From positions 15,226,340 through 15,290,339 of the forward strand of contig NC_087081.1 in NCBI RefSeq assembly GCF_026151205.1: DNA of 64,000 nt, given 5' to 3'. Shown piece after piece: positions 1,623 to 8,941 of the stretch; position 1 is the first letter of the stretch; every line of letters starts with the position of its first letter. The stretch comes from Bolinopsis microptera. Lineage: Eukaryota; Ctenophora; Tentaculata; Lobata; Bolinopsidae. The notes beneath the pieces were generated by a model. It did no database searches and had not been told where the DNA came from. It saw only the letters and a program-made list of their open reading frames with translations. A program made the translations under genes and the position numbers.

Positions 1623-2438
1623 TTTTCTTCTTGCATATTTTATTTTCTCACCTCTACCACTCATTTGGGATTTCAACCCACCATAACTTGAATTGCTGAG
1701 TTACAAAATTTTAAATTTCTTTTATTTGATTGATTGATGGATTGATATTTTGAATAAATTTACTAACATGTCTTTATATCAGGATGACTGTAAAGGTACA
1801 TTTTACCGACATTTGAAGTCAAGGCGTTGTTTTACTGATAGTTGTGGCTAACTAATAATATATATATATATATATAAGGGCTCGCCATGCCTTGACGAAA
1901 GTTTAGCAGACAACATGAACGTTTTTGCAGATAGGAATTATATCAGTTTGTTCATAAAAAATGTGGGTGTGTAGTTAGAATTGCTCTTGTGCAGGAAAAA
2001 AGGTTACCAGGTTAAGGTTTTTTCATACTCATGGCTTCATGGGGTTAGGAGTTCACCTAGTCGTATCACTTTATAAAGGTGTACCCTCTTTGTGTTCCAA
2101 TATGAGAGGTTAACAAAATTTGCAACAGATCCTAACAAAAACAAAACAGAATACTTTATCTGCATCCTAACCCTTACCCTAACTCAAATTGTTCAAGCTG
2201 TCTACCGTAATGTCTACCCTAAACCCTTAGTGACCGGGTTTCTTGGATATTATCAACTTTCTCTGACAAACTCTACATCAAGATTCTAACTTATATACAT
2301 ACCAACTATTTCGTTATGCTACACTCATCAGACTTCTGTAGACATTAGCTTATTGATATTCTACAAAGAATACAGGTACGTACCTCATTTACGTCAATTG
2401 AGTAATACTAATAATGATTGTGCTACTAGAGTACTTAC
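1623..2438. other. Flank of the retroelement, no gene seen
   Basis: This stretch holds a short TA microsatellite (about 1857-1876) and a few degenerate CCCTAA-like units (about 2166-2185). If the minus-strand tetraspanin extends further, this is intron of that gene. I looked on the minus strand for the missing second half of the tetraspanin large loop and found no convincing exon. Confidence 0.4.
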
Positions 2439-4213
2439 CCCGACCAATCGTCGGTTCCATTATTCATCCCACAACAATCAAGCTGAAAATATTTTACGTC
2501 AATGAACGTAAAATTTACGCAAAAGTCGATCTCCTAAAAGCTATCAGGCACAAAGAGATTTACTGCGGAACCATGTTGTGATTCATCCATACTCTTAAGA
2601 GGATTACCGTCCTCCTAAGAGGTGTACCATTTTACGGAGAATAAAAATATGTACAATGTAGGCTAGCCGGTATATAGCCGGTATATAGCCGGTATATAGC
2701 CGGTATATGGCCGCTAGCGATAAGCTAATTTCGAAAGTGGTCTTTTACAGTATATTCTTACAGCCTTCTGGAGGTAATCGAATGGCTCGGTGGCGTTCAA
2801 AGTAAAGTTCTCTCCTCCGTAGAGTCTGAGTTTGCTGGTGAAGATATCGGATATATCTGATCTGACCTGGTAATTGAAACTGTCTAGAAATTAAAACTGT
2901 GCGTAAATAACACATTTAAACATTTTCTTTGTTTTAATCATGTTTGAGCTCACTATTCAGTTTCTTAACAGAAAGTAGAAACTAGCAGTAATATTAATAA
3001 AACATATCAAAAAGTTCTGATCGACCTCCTCTTTATTTGTGATGAAGACCAAGATAAGGACCACTTGAGCAAACACTGCAGCACAAATTAGCAGGAAATA
3101 CTGAAGATTTTGCAGTTATTAACGCGAATAACAAGGAATAGTGCTTATTAGTACAAATGAACCCCCGGCGACGTGAGAAAATGAAAAGACTGAGTGGTAA
3201 ACAACTTAAATACGATTTTGGATAATTGTCATAATATTTATGCAATATGCAGCCATCACGCTCTTTATCGCCAAAACTTAGACACAAAGTTACAATTGTA
3301 GCACATAAACCCAATAGAAGTGGCGCAACGGTAGAGCACGGATATCTTTTATATAATAACTATTGTCGACATTGGTTGATACGGAAATAAGATACATTGT
3401 ATAAGTTTTAGATAAAGTTAAATAGGTTTCCGATATAAATATAACCCTAACCTGTACAAAGCTACATATGAAGGTAACCAATGCCAACGTAAAAGGTTAA
3501 ATCCCCCATTTGACGTATTAAGTTTTTACACAGCAACTCTTACTGAAGTGAAGTAGGGGGACCCCCCCCCCCCCCTGAAGTACAAACCATAGTTAGAAAG
3601 AGGGTGCTAGATTTGTTAGCTCCACAGCAACCCATACCAGCTACGATGAATATAGCTGCCCCAATCCAGATCAGCATGGTGCTCACCGAGATATCATTGC
3701 CTGGGAAAGAAAATACCTTATCGCAAGTAATAATCTCTGGTATGATTAAACAGAATTTTTCCTTGTGTTTGAAATAGAACAAATTATCAACTGGAGACAA
3801 CTCACCTAGAAATTCTTCGTATCCCTCAGCTTCTAGTTTAACATACAGCCCGACAGCGATGAAACCGATCCCTGCAAACTTTTGTATGTCACTACTGAGT
3901 ACTGAGTCTGTTTCTCCTGCCATATTCAACAAATACTCAACAAAAACGTTAAGAATTATGGTGATTTGGGGCGAATATTTAATCTGGCTGTAAGCTTGAA
4001 TCAAGTTGTGGGCTTTTAATATAGTTGTAGGCTTGGTTCCTACTTCCTACTAACACTTACCGAAACGACGATATTCATAATGAAGAGTATCCACTTGACA
4101 CAAGCCTCTCCCAAATCCATGTGTCTCCCGATAATATTAGCAGGTTGCTTGTTCACTCCCACAAAATTAGGAGCTACTTGCTGTATCAGGGATATTCCCT
4201 TGTCGAACTTCAT
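2439..4213 (-). CDS. Tetraspanin A, 3' end missing
   Basis: Exons read on the minus strand: 4213-4061, 3878-3806, 3700-3588, 3100-3026, 2866-2762 and 2482-2439. All phases agree and give about 187 residues. The product starts MKFDKGISLIQQVAPNF. It has a first membrane segment (CVKWILFIMNIVVS joined to FAGIGFIAVGLYV), a second ending in GMGCCGA, and a third (YFLLICAAVFAQVVLILVF). The large loop begins after NKEE and includes the tetraspanin CCG motif (LDCCGMNNGTDDW). The second half of the loop and the fourth membrane segment are not found before the Penelope-like element at 1-1622. The gene may be broken, or its last exons may lie beyond the window. Weak points: the exon 2 acceptor lacks a pyrimidine tract, and the exon 4 donor (GTCGAT) is poor. 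Tetraspanins organise membrane microdomains. This gene is divergent from tetraspanin B and probably its paralogue. Confidence 0.75.
2660..2716. repeat. Short 12-bp tandem repeat (GCCGGTATATA units)
   Basis: Four near-identical GCCGGTATATA units lie between GCTAGC-type ends (GGCTAGCC and GGCCGCTAGC). The block is therefore partly palindromic. It lies in the last visible intron of tetraspanin A, 46 bp past the donor of exon 5. Confidence 0.7.
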
Positions 4214-4965: not shown

Positions 4966-7900
4966 ATGGTCCGAGTGTACTACGGAGACCACTTTGAGCA
5001 TCCTTCAACCCACGAACATTTAACAACTCCAGAAACCGTGGCCAAATTCGCTAACCTGTTTCTCAGCTTCCTTCTCATGGTACACACCTTGTTTAGCCAA
5101 ATAGTGAAACTTTTAATAGTGTTTTTTTGTGTATTCTTGGGAATATTTGGTTGAATATTGTTATCTTTGGAAATGTTGGCGTGACGTCACATCACGTATC
5201 ATGACGTCACATCACCCATCAGGTTGGAGGTATAGCGTGTGCTGTTATGGGGGTTTGGCTTGCTTCCACTGCTAATGAGTACAACTACTTCATCACTGCT
5301 AAAGGTTTGTTTCTACTTCTAGATATATAGTAAATGTTTCATAATTTACTTAATTTTAATTTTATTAACAGTCAGCAGTTGTCTCATTTTTGCCAACTTT
5401 ATTCAAACGAATTATTGATAACAATTCGATTAATCCTCAATGATAGCAAACTGTGGCCCAATATACGGAAACTTCATTGATTCAATATATCTCGATTATG
5501 TCAAAGCTTTTGACAAAGTTGACCAGTCCAAAAACTACTACTGAGAAAACTCCAAGTCTATGGTATTCATCCAAAAAAATCATAAAGTGGGTAGCATCTT
5601 TCCTCTCAGACCGGAAACAAGCAGTCGTTGTTGAAGGTCATCTGTCCATCCTTGCATCGGTGCCAGCACTTTCTGCTATGCTGGCGCAATGAGTTTCAGA
5701 CTTAACTTCGCTGTGGGGTAGTCAGAGGATGTCACGAATAATTTATAGTGTACTTTAAAATGACTTGAGTACTTAAAAATGACATAAGCAATTAAAAATG
5801 ACTTTAGTACACTCCTTCGTTTGTCATCCACGAACTGAGTCTAATACTGATAGTTGGACAATATCCGGTTGGAAGAGACAAGGAAAAATGAAACAGGAAG
5901 TTCCTAACTTCCTGTTTCCTTTTTCCTTGTCTCTTCCAACCGGATATTATCCAACTATCAGTATTTCAATCATGAGACTAATAAACAGCGAACTACTCCA
6001 TCATTCGATAAACTGAGTCTAAATTACAACTTTTCGCTCAAGTTGCACGATTTAAGTTTGCACTTAAATATTTAAGTACAACTTAGGGAGTTGAGCTTAA
6101 ATATCGTGTATTTAAAGTTGCGTTAGGCCTCCATATACGGTGCTTGTTGGAAGCTTTATTGTAGTAGAACATAACTAAAGTCTTACTGTAGGTCTAACTC
6201 CAAGTGTGTTGCTCATAACCTACGGTATAGGGCTCTTCTTCTTCAGTTCCGTAGCGTGCTGTGCTACTGCTCGACACTCCGGGTTCCTTCTAGGTGTGGT
6301 AAGTTGCTTAAATTAAACATATTACATAATGTTTAATCCTTGTTACTTTATTTTATAAATCGTTTCTCTAGCATTATTTAATTTTTGAAGAAACATTTTT
6401 AATTCGCAGGAAATTTATTCGTTCGAAGTTTCAGTCTGTTTCTATTTTTAATCTTTGTGTAATCTTAGATCATTGTGACGATGTTTCTGTTAATTGGTGC
6501 AGAAGTAGTCGGAGTTACTTTCGCTTTTACTTACCGAGACAATGTAAGTTATTGTCAGTTTTAAACTCATCTGTCTGATCGAAGGACTGAAGGATCGATA
6601 ATTATAATAATTAATATTGGAACTGTCCTAATATCATTTAATATCCGGATAGGAACATTATGTATGAGTCGGACTGTTTTGGTGTTTATAGTGTTCAAAA
6701 TTAATTACATCATATTCAAGTTCTCAAATTATTTGTTATGAGTGTTGAAAGTATTAAATCACTGTTTTTAATACTTTCAACACTATTATACAACAAATAA
6801 TTTGAAAACATTTCCCCTTGGCACGGATCAATTATCAGAAATTTTGAACTCTAAACATTTTATAATATCGATATAACCGTAAAAATTATTTTCCAGTTTA
6901 AAAAAGACGTTAAGAATGAGTCACTTAGTCTGATAGCGGGATACAGCGCCCCGGGTTGGGAGAAGAACTCTACTGAAGTCTTCGACAGAATACAACAAGA
7001 TGTTAGTTAAGTGTTTTATAAGTATAACGTTCTTATATTTGAACTAAGATGAGGTTGATAAGAGGTAGATGAGACACGTCTCTACTCTCTTACAGCTGTC
7101 TCAAACTGCACTTATAGTTCAGTTATAGTGCAGTTATAGTGCAGCTATAGTGCAGTTATAGTGCAGTTATAGTGCAGTTATAGTGCAGCTATAGTGCAGT
7201 TATAGTGCAGCTATAGTGCAGTTATAGTGCAGTTATAGTGCAGTTATAGTGCAGTTATAGTGCAGCTATAGTGCAGTTATAGTGCAGTTATAGTGCAGTT
7301 ATAGTGCAGTTATAGTGCAGTTATAGTGCAGTTATAGTGCAGTTATAGTGCAGTTATAGTGCAGTTATAGTGCAGTTATAGTGCAGTTAAAGTGCAGTTA
7401 TAGTGCAGTTATAGTGCAGTTATAGTGCAGTTATAGTGCAGTTATAGTGCAGTTATAGTGCAGTTATAGTGCAGTTATAGTGCAGTTATAGTGCAGTTAT
7501 AGCGCAGAATATCGCATCTCATAGTGTAGAATCAATACCTATAAACACATGTCAGCAGGTTACAAACCTTCAATAAACCCTCTGTATAGCTATCATGTTG
7601 CGGTCACGTAGTAGGCCCGGTCGACTGGTCACGTGGGAAGCTCCTAGCAACTGTATGGATCCGGAGTAACGTTGCCAACACCCCCTCATCCTGCTGTATC
7701 AACATTACGTCCTCATGTGGAGAGAACGCGGCTACCTCCTCAACCAATACCTCCTTCAACCGGGTAAGTGCACCTCCTCCTCCGCAAAGTTATTATCACA
7801 CGTAACGTTGTGTCTTGCAGTTAGAGTGTTGCGGAGTAAGTAGCGGACCGGGTGATTGGGGTGCAGCAGGGAGTAACGGGTCTACACTAGCTGTGTACTG

Positions 7901-8941
7901 GGTGGAGAAGGGTACCCACACGGACGATACTCCGGATAGTTGTTGTAAGAAGAACTCTACTGGATGTGGAACTGATCAGATACCTAATGAGGGGGATATA
8001 CTGTGGAGTGAGGTGCGGGTCAACTCATTTCACTTTAACAATCATTCTCTTTCACTTTACTACTATCTCTCTCATCCTCCTGTTCGTCATATTCCATTAC
8101 CAATAACCTTATTTAAATCTTTTTTGCTTTACCAATGACTTTTCCTCGTTCACTATACTATTAACATTAAGAAATGATAAAGAAATTATCCCATTTATTT
8201 TAACTGTACTAATAGCCCCATTCTTGATTACTCTGACTCTACTACTTCCTCGACCATTGTTGCATTTCTTTTTGCCCGCAGTTTATCTGATTCGGATTGA
8301 TAACCTTTAATTCCTTCGGTGGTCACTGGTTAAGCAAACCATAATAATTTTACTATCAGCTGCTATTTTACCAGTTAACTACATAATTAATTACATTTAA
8401 GTAAATATATATCTCCTATCAGGGTTGTGTGACAGCACTATTTGACTGGTTTGACGGCAAGATGCTGTTGTTCGTAGGGACAGTCTCAACCGTCCTTATC
8501 TTCCAGGTAACTTATAGTAACCTGGTTACCTATACAATATACATGCCATAGTTACCTATTCAAGCTTATAACTATGCACTATGACAGATTCAAGCATTTT
8601 GAACTGATAATGGAGATTTGAGAAGGATCTTGATTTTTCCCATCGTGAATTAGAAGTTCAATTTCAGCCATTACATATCATGATGTATTTATGTTTCGTA
8701 ATGTCTAGCGTAATAGGACAGTGTCTTCGGATGCCTGTACTATTGGGTGAAAACTCACAGATACTTAACAGATGAGACTGAGGATTACCACACGTTTCTC
8801 TTTCAATTTCACTTACACGCTTTACTTTCTCTTTCACTTTCACTCTTACTTACACGCATTACTTTCACTTCACTACAATTTCAGATAGTGAATGTGTGTG
8901 GGATGTACCTGTGGAGACGCTGCATCGTTCACGGATTCTAA
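4966..8941 (+). CDS. Tetraspanin B, complete, with alternative large-loop exons
   Basis: Exons: 4966-5079, 5223-5304, 6192-6298, 6469-6543, 6897-7001, then either 7590-7763 (6a) or 7821-8012 (6b), 8423-8506 and 8885-8941 (stop TAA). All joins keep phase. The protein is 271 residues with 6b or 265 with 6a, a normal tetraspanin length. Membrane segments: FANLFLSFLLM joined to VGGIACAVMGVWL; SVLLITYGIGLFFFSSVACC; IIVTMFLLIGAEVVGVTF; and KMLLFVGTVSTVLIFQ. The large loop in exon 6b has LECCGVSSGPGDW, then PDSCC and a later GCG, followed by GC at the start of exon 7; this is the canonical cysteine pattern. The tail has WRRC. Tetraspanins bind partner receptors through the large loop, so alternative loop exons would change partner choice. 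The intron 2 insertion is a LINE fragment, and introns 2 and 4 carry foldback repeats. Confidence 0.9.
5440..5690 (+). pseudogene. LINE reverse transcriptase fragment, frameshifted
   Basis: The segment reads IYLDYVKAFDKVD, then after a one-base frame change LLLRKLQVYGIHPKKIIKW and SFLSDRKQAVVV. This is the region around motif A of a non-LTR retrotransposon RT (the SKAFDKVDH and WIxSFLxxRxQ blocks of Jockey/CR1-type elements). It is a short dead fragment in intron 2 of tetraspanin B, on the same strand as the gene. Confidence 0.75.
5844..5964. repeat. Long near-perfect foldback (58-bp arms)
   Basis: The arms run from ATACTGATAGTTGGACAATA to its complement ending at 5964. I see about two mismatches, and the loop is CCTAAC. 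An AACTGAGTCTA direct repeat lies outside on both sides (about 5833 and 6011), which could be a target duplication of a larger unit. It sits in intron 2 of tetraspanin B. It may be a foldback transposon or a hairpin RNA precursor. Confidence 0.85.
6721..6808. repeat. Foldback (about 35-bp arms)
   Basis: CAAATTATTTGTT plus GTGTTGAAAGTATTAAA pairs with TTTAATACTTTCAACAC plus AACAAATAATTTG. Small bulges occur between the two paired blocks. It lies in intron 4 of tetraspanin B. Confidence 0.8.
7110..7505. repeat. 11-bp minisatellite (AGTTATAGTGC)n
   Basis: About 36 head-to-tail copies with few variants (AGCTATAGTGC, AGTTAAAGTGC). It occupies most of intron 5 of tetraspanin B and ends about 85 bp before alternative exon 6a. 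Confidence 0.95.
7590..7763 (+). CDS. Alternative tetraspanin exon 6a (second version of the large extracellular loop)
   Basis: A second open segment of exactly 58 codons lies just before exon 6b. It is bounded by an AG (TGTATAG) and a GTAAGT donor, and both ends are phase 0 like 6b. It encodes LSCCGHVVGPVDW, then PSSCC and a following CG. These are the same landmarks as LECCGVSSGPGDW and PDSCC in 6b, but the rest of the sequence differs. It contains no methionine at its start. Only 57 bases separate it from exon 6b, shorter than any other intron in the gene, which would hinder splicing of 6a to 6b. I infer a mutually exclusive pair. Confidence 0.75.

Follow-up and report, generated by a model that had tools for sequence, protein, structure and literature searches.

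In the exon pair of alpha-tropomyosin, the branch point lies so near the upstream donor that the two exons cannot be spliced together. A branch point too close to the upstream donor is also described for exons 4a and 4b of OGDH in the accessible part of PMC7969005. Drosophila Dscam1 likewise depends on mutually exclusive exon choice, and the available sections of PMC4835542 and PMC1397879 give several arrays and 38,016 isoforms for this gene. Among ctenophore genes, Mhc2 of Mnemiopsis leidyi carries two tandem homologous exons ('cluster-0') in the myosin motor region around loop-1 (PMC3912159, as far as its available text goes).

Splicing is also described for tetraspanins. In human and mouse, variants with lost spans, deleted loop parts or alternative ends are reported in the accessible portion of PMC6773723, and that of PMC8587495 describes exon skipping in a tetraspanin of Echinococcus. 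The human and mouse variants resemble the gene presented here in that the large loop is altered by splicing, but a like-for-like loop swap, as proposed here for exons 6a and 6b, was not found in that portion of PMC6773723. The preliminary description of this locus knew of no such tetraspanin, in agreement with the open-access literature outside subscription journals and supplements: the available parts of PMC6773723, PMC2650405, PMC5740500, PMC9741552, PMC4433240, PMC9013439, PMC4203478, PMC8587495 and PMC8003466 mention no tetraspanin with mutually exclusive loop exons. A predicted tetraspanin pair may exist in some published table. The splicing design is known, and its location in a tetraspanin loop seems new.

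The gene occupies positions 4966-8941 of the window, the 64,000-nt stretch of DNA that was analysed (bases 15,226,340-15,290,339 of contig C10 in a genome that probably belongs to a ctenophore). It would encode two four-span tetraspanins through exclusive choice of the tandem exons 6a and 6b, and their mutually exclusive use is judged highly probable from the sequence. Exon 5 would be spliced either to the acceptor of 6a or to that of 6b, and the chosen exon would then be joined to exon 7. Once 6a is taken, the short distance of 57 nt would keep its donor from using the 6b acceptor, and this donor would be joined to exon 7. The swap would exchange that part of the large extracellular loop which is variable, rich in cysteines and the site of partner binding, and leave the rest constant.

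The likeness to the OGDH exons lies in the closeness of the branch point to the upstream donor. In comparison with OGDH, as presented in the accessible text, and alpha-tropomyosin, the block between 6a and 6b would come from the total length of the spacer and would not involve a longer intron with a distant branch point. Mhc2 differs in the region concerned, a myosin motor compared with a membrane-protein loop. The term 'Dscam-like', used earlier for this locus, proved overstated. Dscam1 has several arrays, whereas one pair of exons amounts to a two-way switch with two forms, nearer to the myosin or tropomyosin cases; instead of multiple arrays with many combinations, the window has only 6a and 6b as CCG-containing frames of 40 or more codons on its plus strand.

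Tetraspanin partners are selected largely through the variable region of this loop, and ctenophores are often placed as the sister lineage of other animals. Both isoforms are presumably expressed and would bind different partners. An ancient, regulated two-way loop switch that is enforced by a short spacer, gives two specificities from one gene and is the first of its kind in a tetraspanin is a mildly favoured description of the locus. A gene that exchanges just the variable region would show that splicing, and not gene duplication alone, can determine which loop is used, and its natural isoform pair would allow the partners of each loop to be compared with the remaining protein identical.

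Gene layout and the tandem exons

All exons lie on the plus strand and were checked in the joined frame; membrane spans were placed by eye after the family. Exon 1 (4966-5079) contains the start codon, the N-terminus and the start of TM1 and ends in phase 0; its donor GTACAC was judged by eye to be poor. The remainder of TM1 and the small loop follow in exon 2 (5223-5304, phase 1 end), TM2 in exon 3 (6192-6298) and TM3 in exon 4 (6469-6543). Exon 5 (6897-7001) encodes the constant stretch of the large loop as far as CCG. Exon 7 (8423-8506) supplies the closing cysteine, the final loop helix and TM4, and exon 8 (8885-8941) the end of TM4, the C-terminus and the stop codon. The joined exons gave an open protein of 265 residues with 6a and of 271 residues with 6b. 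Apart from the spacer, the introns measure 143, 887, 170, 353, 588, 410 and 378 nt. Intron 5 harbours an 11-bp minisatellite (7107-7507, plus strand, unit TGCAGTTATAG) with 36.5 copies, and 82 nt separate its end from exon 6a.

Exons 6a (7590-7763, 174 nt) and 6b (7821-8012, 192 nt) encode versions A and B of the variable region of the large loop, and both were identified with Pfam, the joined frame and the cysteine count. They are the adjacent segments of 58 and 64 codons described earlier, and all four ends are indeed in phase 0. The common landmarks also held up, with an L-x-C-C-G start, DW, P-x-S-C-C and C-G in both. The two exons have the same start residue ahead of CCG and stop right before the closing G-C of exon 7; they are tandem homologous exons with matching borders and phase. 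Exon 6a was said to contain no ATG, which is correct for the reading frame, but 6b likewise has no in-frame ATG. No other plus-strand frame of 40 or more codons in the window contains CCG.

With the joined query of exons 5, 6b, 7 and 8, tblastn against the 264.65-Mb genome (232 contigs) matched 6a at E=6.7e-4, whereas the 6a isoform as query matched 6b only at E=0.026. Since the query containing 6b finds 6a genome-wide, the resemblance of the two sequences exceeds chance. Exon 6a as a separate or nested gene was rejected, as the 57-nt spacer has no room for a membrane-span exon and the frame past the 6a donor stops 13 codons on.

The donor sequences are CGG|GTAAGT for 6a and GAG|GTGCGG for 6b, the latter weak by eye; the acceptors are CTCTGTATAG and TGTCTTGCAG, respectively. 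Judged by eye, the donor of 6a and the acceptor of 6b look strongest, a combination that would promote 6a-6b joining if the length permitted it.

The spacer compared with sampled introns

The spacer between the exons (7764-7820, plus strand, GTAAGT...TTGCAG) is 57 nt long. It was compared with introns estimated from 289 exon matches of four conserved families, namely, kinesin, myosin, dynein and TCP-1, in which the best candidates were scored (122 of 127 first-look candidates for kinesin, 65 of 94 for myosin). From these rows, 166 pairs were used, while 80 were not neighbours within 4 kb and 39 were dropped with a profile gap or overlap above 20. The 166 estimates had a minimum of 98 nt and a median of 241 nt, with none at or below 97 nt, in a sample of conserved genes that includes near-duplicate loci, so that the pairs are not all independent and rare shorter introns are possible, and from which the overlap filter removed the myosin pair presented below, so that such spacers could not enter. 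The five smallest introns (98, 101, 103, 107 and 108 nt) were confirmed in the sequence with a joined frame and equalled their estimates.

Ten matches were dropped for overlaps of more than 20 profile positions, and five of these were inspected: the myosin pair (L082) and the loci L085, L086, L088 and L094. In the sequences of the last four no exon pair was seen, and ordinary introns or read-through were found. The other five dropped overlaps had gaps of 167 to 1,352 nt. L086 and L094 (C13:5068200-5068750 and 4981400-4981900) hold a kinesin stretch that occurs twice on C13 with 98.6% identity, which reflects either a duplication of recent date or a haplotype that was not collapsed. Five single matches were 30-110 nt longer than their profile stretch, with an excess of 33, 45, 78, 54 and 39. 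The first corresponded to the myosin exon B and the second to a 135-nt intron, while no hidden intron was present in the other three (L084, L087, L095), which are open through.

The earlier statement that the gap is too short for comfortable splicing is therefore confirmed as to length, as the spacer is shorter than all 166 sampled introns; the block itself is a proposal, in which steric interference within the spacer would keep 6a from being spliced straight to 6b. Nucleotide 42 of the spacer is the last adenine with a margin of 10 nt or more to its end, and a branch point with this margin would be no farther than 42 nt from the donor of 6a. A human survey regards less than 50 bp between donor and branch point as potential steric interference (PMC5740500, accessible part). 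The short spacer, the near branch point and the cysteine number of a joined loop would prevent or penalise joint inclusion.

Family match, loop cysteines and divergence

Both whole isoforms belong to the tetraspanin family, with PF00335 scores of 113.4 bits (6a) and 122.5 bits (6b) at a curated cut-off of 32.1 bits. On their own, the two exons fell below this cut-off, which applies to whole proteins, with 17.9 bits for 6a (E 0.0026) and 22.3 bits for 6b (E 0.00012). Relatives by sequence with a solved structure include tetraspanin-7, tetraspanin-15, CD63, CD53, CD9 and CD81, and when the 6a isoform is aligned to the solved chain of CD63, the CCG, DW, P-x-SCC and CG motifs match up. Phase-0 introns lie in the region of the large loop. 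Ancestral phase-0 introns are reported for animal tetraspanins, several of them within the large loop (PMC2650405, accessible part), and the borders of 6a and 6b may correspond to particular numbered introns of this set.

Exon 5 contributes no loop cysteine, 6a and 6b five each and exon 7 one. The loop would thus have six cysteines with one exon, 11 with both and one with neither. With either 6a or 6b alone, the pattern is CC-CC-C-C, which characterises CD63-like tetraspanins according to the available text of PMC2650405.

These values bear on the normal inclusion of both exons, which would produce a larger loop containing two variable regions. The frame would remain open, the sites to be joined (6a donor, 6b acceptor) look strong by eye, and the PF00335 score is no lower; at 127.9 bits it is above that of either single form, but it is obtained as two stretches. 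This arrangement is nevertheless quite unlikely given the 57-nt spacer at a sampled minimum of 98 nt, the odd number of 11 loop cysteines that leaves one unpaired, and the four tetraspanins of the genome with a whole open loop (L002, L003, L004 and L005), which have one variable region each. Even less probable is a loose cassette in which 6a, 6b, both or neither are included without strict exclusion. As 174 and 192 are multiples of three, both, either or neither exon keeps the frame, so that every combination is permitted in this respect; however, the form with neither exon scored only 62.5 bits and has a single loop cysteine, and joint inclusion meets the same obstacles of spacer length and cysteine number as above.

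An alignment of 6a with 6b over 56 residues shows 32% identity. Out of 12 other loops (ten of the same genome, two of them shortened at the frame end, and the solved chains of CD63 and tetraspanin-7), nine are closer to 6a than 6b is, and nine are closer to 6b than 6a is. A loop tree, in which each row has roughly 60 residues and support values are low, did not join 6a and 6b; it left out L003, L014, L016, L022, L070, the first loop of L073 and the near-duplicates L046 and L049. A recent exon duplication is not supported by this low identity and the closeness of most other loops, and the pair may have originated by tandem duplication or exon capture. The fractions of differing sites were 0.55, 0.54 and 0.68 at the first, second and third codon position, because of which the synonymous sites look saturated. 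The NG86 method gave a dN of 0.89 with saturated synonymous changes, and hence no dN/dS ratio was obtained.

The divergence matters for the reading that a single exon, probably 6b, is used and 6a is a relic. In favour of this reading, the acceptor tract of 6a is interrupted by purines (CTCTGTATAG). On the other hand, 6a has kept its open frame, both splice sites, five cysteines and DW despite apparently saturated synonymous sites, and the reading is considered unlikely. In a neutral simulation with 6a as start sequence (20,000 runs, nine landmarks scored), 15% of the runs were open at 0.3 substitutions per site and 0.125% retained all nine landmarks; at 0.5 substitutions per site or more, no run retained them all. 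Given that the landmarks are so rarely retained, constraint has probably acted on 6a through most of its existence, and an old relic is unlikely. The use of 6a may have been lost recently, that is, well under 0.3 substitutions per site ago.

The myosin pair and other tetraspanin loci

A comparable pair was found in a myosin head gene of the same genome (L082, C3:9153100-9155400). Its exon A (9154013-9154205, 193 nt) and exon B (9154265-9154487, 223 nt) lie just past the P-loop and are separated by a spacer of 59 nt (GTAAAT...TTCAG). The 3' exon is longer by ten codons (73 compared with 63 whole codons). Both lengths are 1 mod 3, so joining both exons shifts the frame, which differs from the tetraspanin pair, where it does not. 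In the available text of PMC3912159, Mnemiopsis Mhc2 has a predicted mutually exclusive pair at the same place with a 3' exon longer by nine residues in loop-1, and the pair on C3 is presumed to be the same pair, which strengthens the assignment of the genome to a ctenophore.

Mutual exclusion of 6a and 6b is favoured because the spacer is below the sampled introns, because one exon gives six loop cysteines and both give 11, and because the myosin pair has a similar spacer of 59 nt. The mutually exclusive loop exons of the preliminary description are thus the best reading of the sequence with regard to exon ends, spacer, cysteine parity and the myosin parallel, while their exclusive use is a prediction. 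Together, the tetraspanin and myosin pairs suggest a rule by which ctenophore genomes could be scanned: homologous neighbouring exons with a spacer below about 70 nt are mutually exclusive.

Further tetraspanin loops were located elsewhere. L073 (C7:18210000-18219999) contains three, each with its own TM4 exon, so that it was rejected as a second gene with the same exon pair and regarded as tandem genes. TM1-3 exons for each L073 loop were not found, and shared upstream exons are possible. L002 and L004 (C10:15188740-15189351 and 15192757-15193371), about 34-38 kb from the window start, are tetraspanins that are intronless over most of the domain and are possibly retrocopies with one loop version each. 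A second tetraspanin-like gene is located head to head with the gene at 4966-8941; it covers 2438-4046 of the window on the minus strand and runs left into L070. Its loop looks split over two exons, with the CCG half at 2438-2533 and the P-x-SCC half at 1501-1599 of L070, and a stretch that by eye is reverse-transcriptase-like lies between the two halves.
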